Below the pieces are notes generated by a model. The model saw only the letters and a program-made list of their open reading frames with translations, did no database searches and was not told where the DNA came from. Below, in pieces: positions 5,801 to 29,181 of a stretch of 36,354 nt of DNA. Numbering within the stretch: position 1 is the first letter of the stretch; every line of letters begins with the position of its first letter. Source of the stretch: a virus; the IMG/VR virus record IMGVR_UViG_3300043823_000564, positions 1-36,354 of that record; one strand, written 5' to 3'. A program made the translations under genes and the position numbers.

Positions 5801-8800
5801 TTAACATCGACTACAGATAGTTTAGAAGTTGACCACACTATTCCATACCAAGCATTGCTCGACGGGTTAACCATTGGCGCAGGTGCACAATATCCAAACC
5901 AAACAACAACTCCGCAAATCTTGGTCGACGGTTTTGGACCTTATACTATTACCAAAGGCCCAAATGCTCCGTTATTACCTGGAGATATTTCTGGTGCAAA
6001 CCATGAATTAATTTTAACATTTAATTTAGGCACGTTAACTTGGGTATTACAAAATCCAACGTTCTCGCCAAGTACAGTAGGTACATTATACTCAGACGAT
6101 TACGGCACAGTTAATAATATTGTTGCCCGCTTTAATCCACCATTCCAATACCCAATTGAGGGTATGTTAATTAACGTTAACGCAAGCTATATTAACACTT
6201 CTACAAATGTTACAATGAAAATCGACGGATTGCCGGCATTCCCGGTAGTACGTGCAGGTGCAAATAGTGTGTTAATTGGCGACATTCAAGCAGCCAACTA
6301 CTACTCAATCTTTACCTGGGACGACGACGCTCAAGCCTGGCAAATTATTAATCCGTACAACTTCGGTGGTAATTCTGTAGTTGCATATGGACAAACACCG
6401 AGTACAAGTACAACAACCGGTGCATTAGTAGTAACTGGTGGCGCAGGTATTAGCGGAAACGTATACGCAGGATCAGTTCACGGTACCACTGTTTACGATA
6501 ATGGCAACAGAGTAATTACTAATTTATCAAGTAGCGGCGCCGGCAATATTAGTATTACTGGATCAATTCCATCGTTGACTATCGGATTGCCTGCTACCGG
6601 AACAGGAGCACAATCCAGTGTTGGTAGCTCTACAAGTATTCCTGTACTAAGTACAGATGCATATGGTCGTGTTATATCTTTATCAAGTGTTACACGTTCA
6701 ACTGTATTCCCAACATTAAACACAACCGGTAACACATACATTGACACTGGCCCAACTATTACTGGGGTAGCAACATTAACAAACGAAACCGACAGTACAG
6801 GTACTGGTGCTGGCGCATTGGTTGTTGCTGGTGGTATTGGTGTTGCTAAGACTGGTTATTTTGGCGGTGACTTACACGTTTTAGGTAACTTGTATACTGT
6901 TAATACAATTAGTACAGGTACTATTACAGCGTCAGTTGTTAACACATTATTATACTTGGGCGAAAGCAATCCCGCACCATATAACTTTGACGTTGGTGTG
7001 TATAGTTTATCAACTGACCCACTGGACAGCAACCGTACGCAATATTTTGGTTTAGTTCGCAATCATACAAATGACTATTGGACATTCTTTAGTAACGCCA
7101 ATACTCAACCAACTGCTAATACAACAGTTAACTTCACTGAAGGTAATATCATTTATGATACTATTAAAGCAGGTGGGGCACTATTAGTAAACACTACAGT
7201 ATCTACCAGTACTACAACAGGTGCATTAATTGTTGATGGTGGTGTTGGTATAGCCGGCAACGTTTATGCTGGTGCAGTATACACAGATCATAATTATTTT
7301 GCAAACGGCACTCCATTTGCAACTACAACATTACAGAATAGTTCTGAAATTACTTCAAGTGCTGCATCTGGATTTAATGTACAATTAAATTTAGCAACCA
7401 CAGGTGTAACACCGGGTGTATACGGTTCTAACGTTAGTATTCCTACTATTGTAGTTGATAGCAAAGGTCGTATTACCAGCTTAACAAGTAACGCAGTAAG
7501 TAGTAGTCTTGCGCTTGCAGGCACAGGTTATAGCACTGGCGCAGTTAGTTTATTAAATCAAACTTTAACCTTTGCGGGACAATATGGCGTAACAGCAGTT
7601 ACCAGTGGTAATGTTGTTACAATTAGTACATCTCAAGATTTAGAAGCATCAGCAAGTCCAACATTTGGTAACGTAACAGTAACTAATACGTTGCAAGTTG
7701 CGGCTCTTGAAGTTGGCACAAACTCTTCGGCTGGAACTACTACATTAGCTGGCGCAACTGTGTTAGGTGGCGGCTTACGTGTTTATACAGCAACTTCGGC
7801 AGACGGACAAGATACATACACAGACTTACGTTATAACCCAAGTTCGGGTGCAACATTATTAAGTACTAAGGCAAGTGCATTGTACTTACAATACGATCAC
7901 GGAACAGGCGGCGTTGTATTTGGTAACGGCGCAGGTTCGGAAGTTGGGTATGTTGATGCTTCGGGTAACGCAAACTTTGTTGGTGCTATTACACAAGCTG
8001 GTAGTCAAGTATTAACTGCTGCCAACTACAACAGTTATGCTCCAAGTAACTCGGGCCAAGGTGCAACTGGCACATGGAATATTAGTATTACTGGTACAAC
8101 CGGTAATGCATCGGCTGCATCGTTAACTGGTACATATTTGGCCACTGGCGTTACAACAAGTAGTTTAAACACACTTGGTACTTTATTATCACTAAACGTT
8201 TCTGGAACTACAACAGCCGGTGGATTAGTAAATGCATCGGCAGGATTAGTGGCAAGTTATGTATATGCTGGCACAATCGGTAACGTTGGGGCAATTTTAA
8301 ACGGTGTAATATACACAGCGGCTCAGCCAAATGTTACAAGTCTTGGCACGTTAACTGGATTAACGGTATCTGGCACAACAACATTAACTGGCACAGCAAA
8401 TATTGCTACTACCAATGTTGTTACGGCAAATGCTATTACTTCATACTCGTCTAACCTTAGCACAGGTAATGCACAAATTTCCGGCGGAGCAATTACAAGC
8501 ACTCCAATCTCTGGAAGTACTGGCTCATTTACAACATTAACTGCAAGTGGCGTATCGAAATTTAATAGTAACGTGGTAGCCGCAAGTGGTACAGCAAGCT
8601 CAAGTACAACAACTGGTGCATTGGTAGTAACAGGCGGCGCCGGTATTACTGGCGCGGTATACGCTGGATCAATTTACACAAACAATCAATATTTTGCCAA
8701 TGGTGCTCCTTATGTTAGTACAATCCTAACATCAGACCCAACTATTACAGCGATCCAAGCAAACGTAATAGCTGCTAATGCCGCTATAGTTACAGCTAAT

Positions 8801-11800
8801 ACTGGCGTAGTTAGTTATGTAAATACAATCCAATCTGGTATTAATGCAAACGTAACAGCCGCTAATGCCGCGATAGTTACAGCTAATACTGGCGTGGTAA
8901 GTTACATTAATTCCATTAATGCAACATTAAATGCGGCCATTACAGCCAACATTAATGCAACGGACGTATTAATTATTACAGCCAACACTGGTGTAGTAAG
9001 TTATGTAAACTCATTGAATACTGGAATGGCAGCTAATGTAAATGCTGCCAACGCCGCAATCGTCACTGCCAACGCAGGAGTGATAAGTTACATTACTACT
9101 CAACTTGGTGTAGTTGATGGATATATAACAGCTAACACTAATGCGGCTAATGCGGCTATTGTTACAGCCAACGCAGGAGTGATAAGTTACATTACTACTC
9201 AACTTGGTGTAGTTGATGGATATATAACAGCTAACACTAATGCGGCTAATACTGCAATCGTTACGGCTAACACCGGTGTAGTGAGTTATGTAAACTCATT
9301 GAATAGTTCAATGATTACCAACGTTAATGCGGCCAATACAGCAATCACAACAGCAAATACAGGTGTGGTATCATATGTTAACACATTAAATTCTGCACTA
9401 AACACAGCAATGATGGCAAATGTGGCCGCTGCTAATGCGGCTATAGTTACTGCTAACGCAGGTGTAGTAAGTTATGTTACTAGTCAAATTACATCATTGA
9501 TTGGTGGCGCACCTGCTGCTCTTGACACGTTGAATTTAATTGCTGCCAATTTGGCCGCTGATGCTAATAGCATCGGAACCATTATTAGTGGATTAACCGC
9601 AGTTAATGCTAACGTAGTTGCTGCTAATGCTTCTGTTGCCGCAGTTTCCGCGGCCTGGTCGGCCAATGCATCAAACCAAGAAACAGAAATGTCTGGTTTA
9701 CGTGCTAACATTAATGCTGCCAATACAGCAATCGTAACAGCCAATACTAGTGTAGTAAGTTATATTGGAACACAAGTTAGTCTAATTGATGGTTATATCA
9801 TAGCCAATGTTAATGCGGCTAATACAGCAATCGTTACAGCAAACACAGGTGTAGTAAGTTATGTTAATTCTATAGCAACAGCTACTAATGTTGCAATCGT
9901 TACAGCCAACACAGGTGTGGTAGCATACGTGAATTCATTGAATTCCGGAATGGTATCAAATCTTACTACTGCAAATTCAGCAGTGGTATCATATGTAAAT
10001 GCACAAGATACTATTATAACAAACTGGATGATTGCAAACGTTGCTGCCGCAAATGCAAATACGCTTACAACAGTTACAACCGCATATAATAATTTAACTG
10101 CTTACGTTGATGGCGAAACTGGCCCAATTAATGCAAGTATTACAGCAGCCAACGCAGCTATTGCAACATTACAAACCAATCAGGCATTACTGCAAACTGA
10201 AGTTTATTCTAATGCAAACGTTGCGGCATACTTAACTACAAATGCACAAAATATTGCCGGTGGTAATTTATACCTGTCAGGTAACATTGTTGCAAATGAA
10301 ATATATGTAAATGAATTATTTTATCCAAACGGTTACCCATATTCAACATCAACTACTGGTACAACCGGTAATTTAACATATGGTATTACGGCATCAACTG
10401 CAAATTCTGCAGTAATATTAAACACCGGAATTTACTTTAATCAAGCAAATATCAGTACATTATTGACATTAATTGATTCTGTTGAAACAACTGGCAACAC
10501 TACTATTTCGTGGGATTTGACTTCAGTTGATTATACTAATTCATATTATGAAAAAGCTCAAATTGATGCGGTTACTGATGGAGTAATAGTTCAGTATACA
10601 GAATATAATAACATTACAAATACTGCATCAACACCATTGACAACTTATCAAGTAATTTTAAGTGGTAGTGAGGGTTATGTACAGTTATGGGCATCTGGTT
10701 TAAGTAATAATGTTAATGTTGCATTCAAACGTAAATTATTAGGATCTTACACACCGTATGGTTATGTACTTTCTAGCACAAGTGGCAACGGTAGCGTGTT
10801 ACAAAATGTTGTAACAAGTCCTACAATTTATTCTGCACAGGCAACAATTAATAATATTGCAACCATAATCGATACATTCCCTGTAACAGGGATTCAATCA
10901 GTTAGTTGGAAATTATCAAGTTCGGATATTGTCAACGGAAAGTACTCAAAATCGTCAATTGATGCAGTATTAGCAGGAAGCCCAACTGATTCTGCAAACC
11001 TTGCAATAAAAACAAATGAATATGGTACTGTAGAAACTAGTTCGGGCCTTAGAGCAGCTACGTTTACAAGTAACATTACATCCGACGGTAATATTTCTTT
11101 ATGGGCCACTGGTGTTAGCTCTGTTGTTTCTGTAACATACGAGCGCACACAATTAGGAACTGCAACCCCTACTGGATATACACTTGGATATGTAAATTCA
11201 AGTAATGTTGTTACCCCAACAACTGGTATGTATTTTGGCAATGTTTCGTTTACTAGTACAAACTTACAAAATAATAACCCAAATATTCTAATCGATACAA
11301 TTCCGGTGTCGGGGAATACTTCTGTTACTTGGCAACTTGCTGGTTCTACAATAGCTAACGTTATATTACAAAGTGGTCAAGGAGCAGGCGGTACATCTAC
11401 TGGAAACGTTTACTCAAGAACAACTATTAGAGCAATTACCGATGGAACAAATGTCTATTCGACCCAAACAGATGATATTTCGAATCTTAATATAGATATT
11501 GCAAATTTTGTTGCGCTTAAAACAAACGACGGAAATATTACATTATATGCAACAGGAGTTGCATCAAATACCGACACATTTATTGCATTTGAAAGATCAG
11601 CAATCGGTTCAAATACTGTGCCAGGATATACTACTTCTAGCTTTGGTACTGTGTCGACTTCAACCGGATTAGCAATTGGTACGGGTAGTTCTGGGTTAAC
11701 CCCAGCCGATGTTGTTGCTAATACTGTTGGTTCAACTGTTATTGATACTTTAGATGCTTCTCAGTTTACAACAGCTAAATATCTGGTTCAAGCAACGTTT

Positions 11801-25332: not shown

Positions 25333-26010
25333 ATGTCAGTTTCATTAACAGCCAGCGGAATACAATTTGCAGATGGTACTACCCAGACATTACCTGCTGT
25401 AGATACTGGCGGATTAATATCAATAACTACATTTACATCATCGGGGACTTATACAGTACCATCTGGGTGCAGTAATATGTTGGTTAGATTAGTCGGCGGT
25501 GGCGGCGGTAGTTGCGGGTATTGCGAATCTGGCGGCGCCGGGGGATATTCCGAAAGTCTAGTAAACATATCAAGTGCAGGATTAACTGCTGGTTCCTCGG
25601 TTATCAATGTTACTGTTGGTGGTGGTGGTGGTGGTACTGGATATTATAGTGCTGCCGGCAATGGCGGAACAAGTAGTTTTGGCTCACTATGCAGCGCCAC
25701 TGGCGGAACTGGTGCAAATACCAGTTACGGTCATACTGGCGGATATGGGGGATCGGGATCTGGCGGACAGATTAATTTACAAGGTGGTGGCGGTTCGGGG
25801 CATGCAAACGGTTGCGGCTATGGTGGTATGGGCCGAGGTGGCGCAAGCTATTTTGGTAGTACTAAAGGTATTCAGCATCATTATGGCGGCCAAGTTGGTC
25901 CGGGAGCCCCGGGCTCAGGTTCAAGTGGTGGAAATACAGATGGCGGCCCGGGAGCAGGCAGCGGCAGTCAAGGTGCCAGTGGTGTAGTCATTGTTTATGC
26001 TTATTATTAA
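25333..26010 (+). CDS. Glycine-rich adhesin-like tail protein, copy 1 of 3
   Basis: 225 residues, three bases after the chaperone-bearing fibre. The N-terminal 20 residues carry the SLTASGIQFADGTTQ motif common in phage tail proteins. A TFTSSGTYTVPSG strand and VRLVGGGGG then lead into a Gly-dominated region of about 150 residues with motifs CGYCESGG, TSSFGSLCS, GSGSGGQINL and GGASYFGS, ending in GVVIVYAYY. Glycine-rich domains of this kind occur in phage distal-tail proteins, and the glycine-rich Gp38 adhesin of phage S16 forms polyglycine-II sandwiches that bind receptors. A similar fold and receptor-binding role is inferred from composition and position. Two paralogues follow directly. Confidence 0.75.
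   Translation: MSVSLTASGIQFADGTTQTLPAVDTGGLISITTFTSSGTYTVPSGCSNMLVRLVGGGGGSCGYCESGGAGGYSESLVNISSAGLTAGSSVINVTVGGGGGGTGYYSAAGNGGTSSFGSLCSATGGTGANTSYGHTGGYGGSGSGGQINLQGGGGSGHANGCGYGGMGRGGASYFGSTKGIQHHYGGQVGPGAPGSGSSGGNTDGGPGAGSGSQGASGVVIVYAYY
25424..25461 (+). repeat. 38-bp exact repeat shared by glycine-rich genes 1 and 2 (copy 1)
   Basis: Identical to 26114-26151. It encodes the TTFTSSGTYTVP strand just before the glycine-rich domain; the third paralogue has diverged here. Confidence 0.85.
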
Positions 26011-26022
26011 AAGAGACACAGT

Positions 26023-26676
26023 ATGACAGCAATAACACTAACAAGTACAGGTTTACAACAAGGTTCAAATACTTTAAATACTACCCCTGTTGATACGGGC
26101 GAGGCAGTATTAGTAACTACATTTACATCATCGGGGACTTATACAGTACCAAGTAATGCTACAACAATTTTAGTACAAATGGTAGGTGGTGGTGGTGGTG
26201 GTTGCGGTTATTGCGAATCTGGTGGTGGTGGTGGATATGCTGAAGGGATGTATAGTGTATCAGGCGGCGCACAATATTCAGTTACTGTAGGTGGTGGTGG
26301 TGGCGGAGCCGGGTATTATACTTCGCCATGCCCAGCGGGTGGAACAACTAGCTTTGGTTCACTCTTAAGTGCTAGTGGCGGTGGTGGAGCAAACTCTTAT
26401 ATAACCCACGCAGGTGGGCATGGGGGTTCTGGATCGGGCGGCCAAGTTAATTTAACTGGTGGGTCTGGCACAGGACATGTTAACCATGGATCGCACAATC
26501 AAAATTCAGATGGCGGTAGTTCTTATTTCGGTGGTGGCCCGGGACATATTAGAAGTCATCAAACACAGGGGTATTCATGGGCACCAGGTTCTGGCGGTTG
26601 TGGAGATATGACATACGGATACGGTAGTGGCGCATCGGGCGCATCAGGAATAGTAATCGTACACGCATTTATGTGA
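26023..26676 (+). CDS. Glycine-rich adhesin-like tail protein, copy 2 of 3
   Basis: 217 residues, 12 bases after copy 1. Same plan: TLTSTGLQQGSNT start, TFTSSGTYTVPS strand, VQMVGGGGGGCGYCESGGGGGYAEG, TTSFGSLLSASGGGGAN, GGSGSGGQVNLTGGSGTGH, a variable loop with SDGGSSYFGGG, and the hydrophobic end GIVIVHAFM. The region between about residues 140 and 195 (HGSHNQNSDGG, RSHQTQGYSWAPG) differs most from copies 1 and 3, as expected if exposed loops meet the receptor. The CGYCESGG motif is kept. Receptor-binding role is inferred. Confidence 0.72.
   Translation: MTAITLTSTGLQQGSNTLNTTPVDTGEAVLVTTFTSSGTYTVPSNATTILVQMVGGGGGGCGYCESGGGGGYAEGMYSVSGGAQYSVTVGGGGGGAGYYTSPCPAGGTTSFGSLLSASGGGGANSYITHAGGHGGSGSGGQVNLTGGSGTGHVNHGSHNQNSDGGSSYFGGGPGHIRSHQTQGYSWAPGSGGCGDMTYGYGSGASGASGIVIVHAFM
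26114..26151 (+). repeat. 38-bp exact repeat shared by glycine-rich genes 1 and 2 (copy 2)
   Basis: Identical to 25424-25461, at the same place in the paralogous gene. Confidence 0.85.
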
Positions 26677-26687
26677 GAATATAGAAT

Positions 26688-27368
26688 ATGGCAGTTACAT
26701 TAACAAGCACAGGCATAGTTTACTCAAACGGTGCAGCACAAAATACTTTAACACAAGATTTGGGATCTTTAATAAGTATTCAAACATTTTCGTCCAGTGG
26801 TACTTGGACTAACCCGGGTGCATCATTGGTTCGTGTAAAAATGGTAGGTGGTGGTGGCGGTGGCTGTGGGTATTGCGAATCCGGCGGGGCCGGTGGTTAT
26901 GCTGAGGGAATATATAGTGTATCAGGAGTTTCATCAGTTGGCGTTACTGTAGGTAGCGGTGGTGGTGGAGCTGGGTACTATCAAGGTTGCCCTGGTGGCG
27001 GCACAAGTAGTTTTGGTGGGTACTTATCGGCAAGTGGCGGCGGTGGCGCAAATACATACTCTACCCATTCGGGCGGTCATGGGGGTTCAGGATCCGGCGG
27101 CCAAATTAATTTAACAGGCTCAAGTGCCAGCGGACATTGCAATAGTAGTGGAGCCCACTCCGGTGGTCGTGGCGGCCAAAGTTATTTTGGTGGTGCAGCA
27201 TCACTGGTCAGAAATCACGGCAATAACGGTCTATACGGACCACAGCCATATGCAGGTGCTGGCGCCCCGGGATCTGGTGGCCCAGGGCAAATGACCGACG
27301 GATACTATGACGGAAACAGTAACGGATATGGCGCAAATGGCATAGTTATTGTTTACGCTTTTAAATAA
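26688..27368 (+). CDS. Glycine-rich adhesin-like tail protein, copy 3 of 3
   Basis: 226 residues, 11 bases after copy 2. It opens with TLTSTGIVYSNGAAQ, then TFSSSGTWTNPG (Trp and Asn-Pro replace Tyr and Val-Pro of the other copies), VKMVGGGGGGCGYCESGGAGGYAEG, TSSFGGYLSASGGGGAN, GGSGSGGQINLTG and GGRGGQSYFGG, ending in GIVIVYAFK. Its variable part (YDGNSNGYGANG, YGPQPYAGAGAPG) is distinct. It belongs to the same presumed late operon as the S74 fibre. Likely an alternative or additional distal adhesin; this is inference from paralogy and context. Confidence 0.72.
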   Translation: MAVTLTSTGIVYSNGAAQNTLTQDLGSLISIQTFSSSGTWTNPGASLVRVKMVGGGGGGCGYCESGGAGGYAEGIYSVSGVSSVGVTVGSGGGGAGYYQGCPGGGTSSFGGYLSASGGGGANTYSTHSGGHGGSGSGGQINLTGSSASGHCNSSGAHSGGRGGQSYFGGAASLVRNHGNNGLYGPQPYAGAGAPGSGGPGQMTDGYYDGNSNGYGANGIVIVYAFK

Positions 27369-27387
27369 ATTTCAAAAGGATATAGAA

Positions 27388-27834
27388 ATGTTATCAGCAT
27401 TAATTCACTCATTAGAACCAGGTCGCATTTGCGATATTGTTCAACCAGGACAAGAATTTGAAGTCCATAGTAATTTTTCATGGGTAAATGTACCAGATGG
27501 TACAACCACATCGGATTCTTACGATCCAACAACTAATACAGTTACTACATTTGATCCACTAAGTGATCCTGCATACGCATCTCAGGCATACAAAGTAGCA
27601 CGACAAATTGCATACGGAAGTATTGGTGATCAATTAGATATGTTGCATAAAGAATTAACCAGCACAGGGTCTATTAGTCCAACGGGGCAGTGGGCAACAC
27701 AAATTTCCAATGCAAAATCGAATATTCCAAAAGATGATCCTTCTGCAGTTCACGCATGGAACATTTCTCAAGCACAACAAAATGCTGTTAACGCAAATGT
27801 AATAACAATTAATGGTGTTGTTAGCAATACTTAA
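27388..27834 (+). CDS. Small tail-associated protein with DQLDM-type C-terminal domain
   Basis: 149 residues from the ATG at 27388, chosen because AAAAGGA stands 7 bases upstream; an in-frame ATG at 27349 would overlap the previous gene and has no such site. The N-terminal half (GQEFEVHSNFSWVNVPDG) looks like a short beta domain. The C-terminal half carries ARQIAYGSIGDQLDMLHKEL...W...I..AKSNIPK, a pattern frequent in small phage tail-fibre-associated or fibre-assembly proteins. It is the last gene before a strong terminator. The precise function is unknown; an accessory or chaperone role for the adjacent adhesins is a guess from position. Confidence 0.6.
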   Translation: MLSALIHSLEPGRICDIVQPGQEFEVHSNFSWVNVPDGTTTSDSYDPTTNTVTTFDPLSDPAYASQAYKVARQIAYGSIGDQLDMLHKELTSTGSISPTGQWATQISNAKSNIPKDDPSAVHAWNISQAQQNAVNANVITINGVVSNT

Positions 27835-27861: not shown

Positions 27862-27895
27862 TTTAGCCCGGGCTTGTCCCGGGTTAAATATTTTT
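27862..27895 (+). terminator. Rho-independent terminator ending the fibre operon
   Basis: A 6-bp CCCGGG/CCCGGG core with CTTGT loop extends by TTTAG/TTAAA (four A-T pairs and one G-U) to an 11-bp stem and is followed by TATTTTT. It separates the structural block from the enzyme cassette. Confidence 0.88.
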
Positions 27896-27918: not shown

Positions 27919-29181
27919 ATGAATTTCAATAAACGCTTTTCAGTTGCACACTTTGATAGATTTCACGGCGACTATTCGAGTATATTTTATACAATAATGA
28001 AAAATGCCAAACCGAGTTATTTGGCTAATATACACGACATTTATTTTGGAAAATTTTTCTATTATGAATATAACGGAGAACAAAAACGTTGTGGCAATCC
28101 GATGGGAGTTGAAGCCAGCGATGAGCAAGTAGATTACTTGTTTAGATTGCAAGAAGAGACCGGTGTTGAAATTAGTTTAACATTTAATACAGTTGAAGTT
28201 CCGCACGAAGTAGCGTTTGACCCAAAAATAACTGAACAATTTGTTGAATGGATTGGTAGTTACTATGATCGCGGATTGCGTAGTTGCACAATAAGCAGTG
28301 AACACATCATGCGGATGGGATGGTTGCAAGATCGTTGTCCAGATATGCGTTGGAAATCAACAGTTAATCAAATCTGCGCTGATGCACAACAATTCATTGA
28401 TATGGCATACTTAGGTTATAACACTATTAACTTAGATCGTAGCTTGAACAGAAACATTAAAGAATTAAAACGCATTAAACGTGCTCAAGATTATCTCAAC
28501 AGTAAAAATCCAAAGAAAAAAGTATTAACAGTATTGTTAGTAGCCGAAGCTTGCATTTATCATTGTCCATTTAAGAAAGAACATGATAGTGTTGGCGAAG
28601 TTATTAGCGGAAGCTATTTTAGAGATTACGCAGATTTGAGTTGTAATGCATGGCGCAATGTTCCGGAGTTTGCTGCAAGTCCTCGCTCGGGAATTAATAT
28701 TGTTGCTAATACTAAAGAAACATTTAAACAATATGGAGATTTAGTAGACATATTTAAATATTCTGGACGTTTAACAGATGCAAGTCATATTCCGTCAGAA
28801 GCAAAACATTTAAGAGCTTCGTGGTATTTTGCACAAGGCAAGAGTAAATTTAAACAAGCAACTACTGTTGGCACAACAATTTTTGCAGATGACTTTGCAG
28901 AAATCTACGAAAACAATCTTGGTCCAATACACGATTGGTTACCGGGGTGGATTGATACACGCTTGTCGGTTGATGACTGGCGCACAACGTATAAACCATA
29001 TGATACAATATGGGCAACGCCACCGGGACAAAAATTAGAAAAACTATTATTAAATTGTCGCAGTCAATGTTGGGATTGTCACGAATGTGAGAAAGTATTT
29101 GGCATGCAAGAAGTTGATTCTGCGCTACAAATGCGTAAAGTATACACACCACCAACTATGATATTGCGGGATATGCGATGA
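27919..29181 (+). CDS. U32-like Fe-S TIM-barrel protein, probable tailoring enzyme
   Basis: 420 residues, start supported by AGGAC 10 bases upstream. The first 300 residues have the alternating pattern of a TIM barrel. A Cys pair C212-x3-C216 in EACIYHCPFKKEH follows a NLDRSLNRN segment, and the C-terminus has a four-Cys cluster C380-x3-C384-x2-C387-x2-C390 (CRSQCWDCHEC). This arrangement recalls the U32 peptidase-like superfamily, whose studied members (RlhA, TrhP, UbiU/UbiV) hold 4Fe-4S clusters and take part in hydroxylation of RNA or ubiquinone precursors, not proteolysis. The canonical radical-SAM CxxxCxxC is not at the N-terminus. It overlaps the next gene by ATGA, implying translational coupling. 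Family placement is from pattern memory and moderate; substrate is unknown. Confidence 0.55.
   Translation: MNFNKRFSVAHFDRFHGDYSSIFYTIMKNAKPSYLANIHDIYFGKFFYYEYNGEQKRCGNPMGVEASDEQVDYLFRLQEETGVEISLTFNTVEVPHEVAFDPKITEQFVEWIGSYYDRGLRSCTISSEHIMRMGWLQDRCPDMRWKSTVNQICADAQQFIDMAYLGYNTINLDRSLNRNIKELKRIKRAQDYLNSKNPKKKVLTVLLVAEACIYHCPFKKEHDSVGEVISGSYFRDYADLSCNAWRNVPEFAASPRSGINIVANTKETFKQYGDLVDIFKYSGRLTDASHIPSEAKHLRASWYFAQGKSKFKQATTVGTTIFADDFAEIYENNLGPIHDWLPGWIDTRLSVDDWRTTYKPYDTIWATPPGQKLEKLLLNCRSQCWDCHECEKVFGMQEVDSALQMRKVYTPPTMILRDMR

Follow-up and report, generated by a model that had tools for sequence, protein, structure and literature searches.

What does a U32-like protein do among the tail genes of a phage? 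The question is raised by U32L (U32-like protein), which is encoded in a 36-kb virus record with T4-type tail genes; the whole stretch analysed here, 36 354 nt, is referred to as the window. In the first-pass annotation U32L was read as a U32-like Fe-S barrel, and a viral member of this kind beside an O2-dependent oxygenase and a halogenase was considered unexpected. Here we assign U32L to an unnamed sister branch of U32 and propose, as a tentative reading to which we give a little less than even weight, that it is an Fe-S oxidase or hydroxylase in a modification cassette linked to tail-fibre genes. A literature search with incomplete journal coverage returned no account of U32-like proteins in phages or of tail fibres modified by oxygenases.

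The U32L gene and its invariant cysteines

The U32L start is preceded by an AGGA Shine–Dalgarno-like stretch, and the features of the region are collected in Table 1. No Pfam or NCBIfam model matched the protein, and its PHROG assignment was limited to 1458 and 36869, both of unknown function, the profile of PHROG 1458 matching residues 74–284 (E 3e-23). Sequence searches of the PDB with U32L, singly or as profiles, gave no relevant match, and no relative was found in the plasmid collection searched.

Table 1. Features of the window around U32L
Feature	Position	Strand	Remarks
Long tail fibre/baseplate-like protein, 2015 aa	19282..25329	+	PHROGs tail fibre and baseplate families; upstream part of tail module
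Glycine-rich adhesin-like protein 1	25333..26010	+	PF21722; GYCESGGAGGY motif at 25516–25548
Glycine-rich adhesin-like protein 2	26023..26676	+	PF21722; motif at 26206–26238
Glycine-rich adhesin-like protein 3	26688..27368	+	PF21722; motif at 26868–26900
Small gene, phrog_1787	27349..27834	+	Immediately upstream of U32L; true start uncertain
Terminator-like hairpin, gap between small gene and U32L	27862..27888	+	Strong; fold z -4.1
U32L (U32-like protein)	27919..29181	+	420 aa; ATG ORF; stop codon included in span
Codons C212-x3-C216	28552..28566	+	Translation; invariant; just past barrel strand 203–209
Codon C242	28642..28644	+	Alignments; third invariant Cys
Codons C380-x3-C384-x2-C387-x2-C390	29056..29088	+	Translation; invariant
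2OG-Fe(II) oxygenase-like protein, 196 aa	29178..29768	+	H105-x-D107 ... H177; Pfam 2OG-FeII_Oxy_3/5 E 0.002, below cut-off; phrog_274
Flavin-dependent halogenase, VirX1 type, 539 aa	29777..31396	+	PF04820 E 2e-104; GxGxxG, GWxWxIP

The 420-residue ORF and the two cysteine groups named earlier, C212-x3-C216 (within CIYHCPFKKEH) and C380-x3-C384-x2-C387-x2-C390, are present as described and invariant in relatives, but that inventory of six had overlooked a seventh invariant cysteine, C242. All seven are invariant in 25 freshwater-phage relatives and in 26 sequences reaching down to 25% identity, both sets being gathered by tblastn without a motif filter, and also in 40 diverse sequences chosen partly with the motif. 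A larger set of 163 distinct sequences agrees; it was collected partly by a motif in which six of the cysteines are fixed and E210 nearly so, so that it is non-independent for those positions and its unbiased invariants are only C242, R174, R178, H222, K280 and R284. Together with E210, the latter five are the invariant non-cysteine residues of the family, and cysteines 58, 123 and 140 of U32L lack family-wide conservation. Because all seven cysteines persist across relatives down to 25% identity, the pattern, as judged from the alignments, is not due to chance.

Four closely spaced cysteines may also look like a zinc site, and the only PDB profile match of U32L was a zinc finger over residues 378–400 (E 0.48). 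Since U32L adjoins fibre genes, its cysteines might bind zinc in a non-catalytic folding or assembly factor for fibres. The invariant charged residues across the barrel, the enzymes encoded next door and the bacterial homologues beside U32 enzymes all favour catalysis instead, and we consider the zinc explanation very unlikely.

Fold and kinship with the U32 family

In a first AlphaFold run on 26 sequences the cysteine loops of U32L stayed below pLDDT 50; with 40 diverse relatives they rose to pLDDT 76–80, and the whole model reached pLDDT 88.6 and pTM 0.89. The Foldseek comparison suggested in the first-pass annotation was carried out on this model, and its best PDB match was a U32 structure, 5D88 (E 5.4e-8), and not a member of another family. 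The runner-up was about 1000-fold worse (E 5.5e-5), and the following matches were generic barrels. The TM-score with 5D88 was 0.66 over the target but 0.41 over the whole query, and the first, weaker model likewise had 5D88 as its top match. In a viral structure library, the second-best match was the ‘Peptidase’ of Escherichia phage OLB35 (BFVD A0A3G3MCS7), which is possibly a phage protein nearer to classical U32.

Moreover, a broad profile of the U32L family matched Desulfobacterota U32 proteins at 92.6% across the barrel (E 4.5e-7, a pairwise value without calibration against a database), as against 1.5% for MTHFR and 3.2% for radical SAM, the two control families being drawn from the same genomes as the U32 proteins. 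In the profile alignment, the NLDR strand of the U32L family falls on NLAREL of U32, its K-x-x-G-R on K-x-E-G-R, and its first cysteine near that of GALC. Narrow sub-profiles scored less: the freshwater group reached 0.2–2%, the cyanophage group 22% and the cellular group 89.5%; the case for kinship accordingly depends on the fold together with the broad alignment and the cellular relatives, and on these we regard it as highly probable.

The earlier reading of a U32-like barrel thus stands as to fold and profile but not as to membership. PF01136 matched none of 25 U32L-family members at E up to 10 and no cellular member at E up to 1. The U32 cluster motif CX6CX15CX3C (PMC6747719) is absent from U32L, which has C-x3-C, C242 and C-x3-C-x2-C-x2-C instead. 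The essential Glu of U32 enzymes, E162 in TrhP (PMC6599085), stands eight residues before the first cysteine; the corresponding position of U32L, 204, is L, T or I, and the invariant Glu of its family, E210, is found at -2. Because U32L lacks the Pfam match, the U32 cysteine motif and the catalytic Glu but is related in fold and profile, it belongs to an unnamed sister branch of U32 and is not a PF01136 member.

The spacing of C380-x3-C384-x2-C387 is the same as that of CX3CX2C, so a radical SAM enzyme using these three cysteines was also considered. In U32L, however, the motif is C-terminal, past the barrel, instead of after strand 1; no radical SAM structure was among the 50 best Foldseek matches, and there was no PF04055 match. 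With the profile comparison at only 3.2%, this extremely improbable reading was rejected.

Viral relatives and bacterial copies

Relatives of U32L were found on more than 450 viral contigs. Close relatives occupy 54 viral loci, full-length copies being 64–78% identical, and contigs of 354 and 321 kb are among those carrying them. Cyanophages often carry a second phage group of the family, 25–29% identical (123 records, 476 viral stretches), whose members are annotated as unnamed or hypothetical T4-GC_354 proteins. The cyanophage forms have an extra C-terminal domain, which in one homologue gave a sub-threshold methyltransferase match, and forms with the methyltransferase-like domain on a separate gene also exist. 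psbA was sought in 14 related virus records, possibly fragments, and found in none; a cyanobacterial host is therefore unsupported for the window's group.

A full-length copy with 47–48% identity is present in two Desulfobacterota-class genomes. As both copies nest inside the phage clade (tree, 98/96), transfer from phage to bacterium is probable. The surroundings of both are chromosomal, with no phage genes recognised. Cyanophage-type copies also occur in short contigs of an archaeal MAG and a Dehalococcoidia MAG, which are probably misbinned phage contigs.

Cellular relatives beside U32 genes

Many Desulfobacterota carry a further relative of ∼360 aa, a separate clade and unnamed family with the same seven-cysteine pattern. 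In 41 of 62 Desulfobacterota-class genomes its gene immediately follows a PF01136 U32 gene, in the same orientation and within 2.5 kb, for which we estimate a chance adjacency of ∼1% or less, given one to six U32 genes per genome of 1.6–5.8 Mb. Adjacency to genuine U32 genes is an independent sign that supports kinship with U32. U32 proteins are known to work in pairs, as UbiU–UbiV (PMC6747719) and YrrN–YrrO (PMC6599085), which this arrangement resembles, and the ∼360-aa protein probably partners a U32 enzyme. Tail genes are absent around the cellular relatives.

These neighbours bear on whether U32L, by itself or together with a U32 protein of the host, hydroxylates tRNA or rRNA and so tunes translation during infection. 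The best characterised U32 relatives, TrhP, YrrN/YrrO and RlhA, do hydroxylate RNA (PMC6599085). Both of the U32 neighbours that were scanned carry PF16325, the C-terminal domain type of TrhP, one scoring above the cut-off and the other narrowly missing it, and the methyltransferase-like domain of the cyanophage forms recalls that mo5U requires a methyltransferase. However, no RNA-binding domain was recognised in U32L and no RNA-modification gene near it, the window contains no tRNA gene, and in three phage groups the context is tail fibres with oxygenase or halogenase. An RNA target therefore appears unlikely.

Conserved gene order around U32L

In the window's group the order is glycine-rich genes, a small gene, U32L, in part of the loci a 2OG oxygenase gene, and a VirX1-type halogenase. 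The halogenase lies at most three genes from U32L in 53/53 loci, a count that measures conservation, as the loci share ancestry, and not 53 independent events. U32L and halogenase are adjacent in 28 of these and separated by the 2OG gene in the other 25. A small phrog_1787-type gene directly precedes U32L in all 46 testable loci, and glycine-rich genes lie upstream in 39 of 44. In the cyanophage group, fibre genes are upstream in 61/66 loci and a phrog_274-type 2OG gene comes next in 67/80; in the stand-alone group, fibre genes are upstream in 69/74 and a different 2OG oxygenase, a 2OG-FeII_Oxy_5 protein, comes next in 40/80. T4-like phages generally vary in their tail-fibre region. The neighbours that had made a viral U32-like protein seem unexpected are thus real, but their linkage to it is conserved, and cyanophages carry the family widely.

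The same enzymes might instead make or alter a metabolite of indole, tyrosine, quinone or pigment origin, with an effect on the host or its competitors. VirX1 iodinates diverse substrates, according to the title of a study cited in PMC10452541, and UbiU–UbiV act on a quinone precursor (PMC6747719). Nevertheless, no biosynthetic genes were recognised next to the cassette; 28/53 loci have no 2OG gene and most cyanophage forms lack an adjacent halogenase, and this variable presence argues against a fixed pathway. The placement after fibre genes would also be left unexplained, and we judge a metabolite as product quite unlikely.

Neighbouring enzymes and glycine-rich proteins

Both enzymes named earlier as neighbours are indeed encoded downstream, the oxygenase-like protein with its HxD...H intact. 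The U32L stop overlaps the oxygenase start as ATGA and the halogenase begins eight bases past the oxygenase, because of which the three genes look co-translated. The best solved-structure match of the halogenase is VirX1 (6qgm, E 1e-146), and it is 46% identical to a Syn10 halogenase.

The label of PHROG 274 reads ‘DNA endonuclease V’, and the P-SSM4 copy (8602–9111 of the retrieved stretch) is named denV. Proteins of this PHROG resemble 2OG-Fe(II) oxygenases, with HxD...H and weak Pfam matches, and denV was described in a review as absent from cyanophages (PMC2984593). The label is probably a propagated misannotation.

GYCESGG[AG]GGY is common to the three adjacent glycine-rich proteins encoded in the window, which are rich in Tyr and also contain some Cys and His. 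Among 2.9 million viral contigs searched, the motif GYCExGG was found in 42. U32L is present on 41 of these, and for the remaining one the retrieved piece stops short of the U32L position. This co-occurrence could also reflect a module inherited from a common ancestor.

Proposed role

Fold, kinship, conserved residues and gene linkage were established computationally; from these we infer Fe-S binding, oxidative chemistry and a target. That U32L, a single-chain protein, binds one or more Fe-S clusters, as its seven invariant cysteines suggest, is very probable. At the barrel's open end, C212, C216 and C242 would hold a three-cysteine, site-differentiated [4Fe-4S] catalytic cluster surrounded by E210, H222, K280, R284 and R174/R178, and the C-terminal C-x3-C-x2-C-x2-C may hold a second, auxiliary cluster for electron transfer, which amounts to a putative three-plus-four division of the cysteines. 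Oxidative modification by U32L is fairly probable: like U32 enzymes, it would oxidise, and most likely hydroxylate, an aromatic or otherwise unreactive position without O2. U32 enzymes are thought to draw the oxygen from prephenate, direct proof of which is missing, and a single U32 structure, of an uncharacterised member, was covered in the same review (PMC11574389).

The gene would be laid out for translation with the 2OG oxygenase and the VirX1-type halogenase, as a modification cassette. Because U32L is kept beside tail-fibre genes and, in the window's group, always with a halogenase, the data suggest that the cassette chemically modifies the host-binding proteins of the phage. A tail protein as target is possible, at somewhat short of an even chance, and the most likely candidates would be the virion's own glycine-rich adhesin-like proteins, encoded just upstream. 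The most specific version, in which the three enzymes hydroxylate and halogenate these adhesins and thereby set host binding, we consider doubtful.

The role of phage halogenases has been a guess since their discovery; here the halogenase is tied, without exception in the window's group, to U32L, and to adhesin-like genes. An antibiotic role for them was called speculative (PMC2984593). If tail proteins are indeed decorated in this way, the natural substrate of phage halogenases would thereby be identified. U32L also adds to the U32 enzymes a branch whose cysteine pattern is its own.

Comparison with known systems

With U32 (PF01136; TrhP, RlhA, UbiU, UbiV; 5D88, Mk0906), U32L has in common the TIM-barrel fold, a first cysteine that closely follows a late barrel strand, a K-x-x-G-R in the strand after it, a conserved cysteine set, and bacterial relatives linked to a second U32 protein. 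Unlike U32, it has C-x3-C-P in place of C-x6-C, a third cysteine 25 residues further on, an additional C-terminal C-x3-C-x2-C-x2-C, and its Glu at a distance of two residues, not eight, ahead of the first cysteine. With radical SAM enzymes it shares a barrel and the cysteine spacing, but the motif lies at the opposite end of the fold, and profile and structural support are absent.

PHROG 1458/T4-GC_354 proteins, such as PSSM4_035 of P-SSM4, are of the same family and have the same seven cysteines, and their genes likewise lie downstream of fibre genes and are followed by the phrog_274 2OG gene. In contrast to U32L, their barrel part is shorter, a methyltransferase-like domain is fused at the C-terminus, and in the annotated records read the halogenase is not adjacent.

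In S-CREM1, the stretch 49669–65237 holds eight annotated 2OG-Fe(II) oxygenases and one JmjC protein, the oxygenase run coming after a fibre-region gene, a collagen-like protein and the halogenase; it is a hot spot of modification enzymes by tail genes. More generally, in the VirX1-type halogenase loci of the cyanophages syn9, S-CREM1 and Sf-CH11, halogenase and 2OG oxygenases lie just downstream of fibre genes, as in the window, whereas in the stretches of these three phages that were read no U32-like gene is annotated or was recognised.
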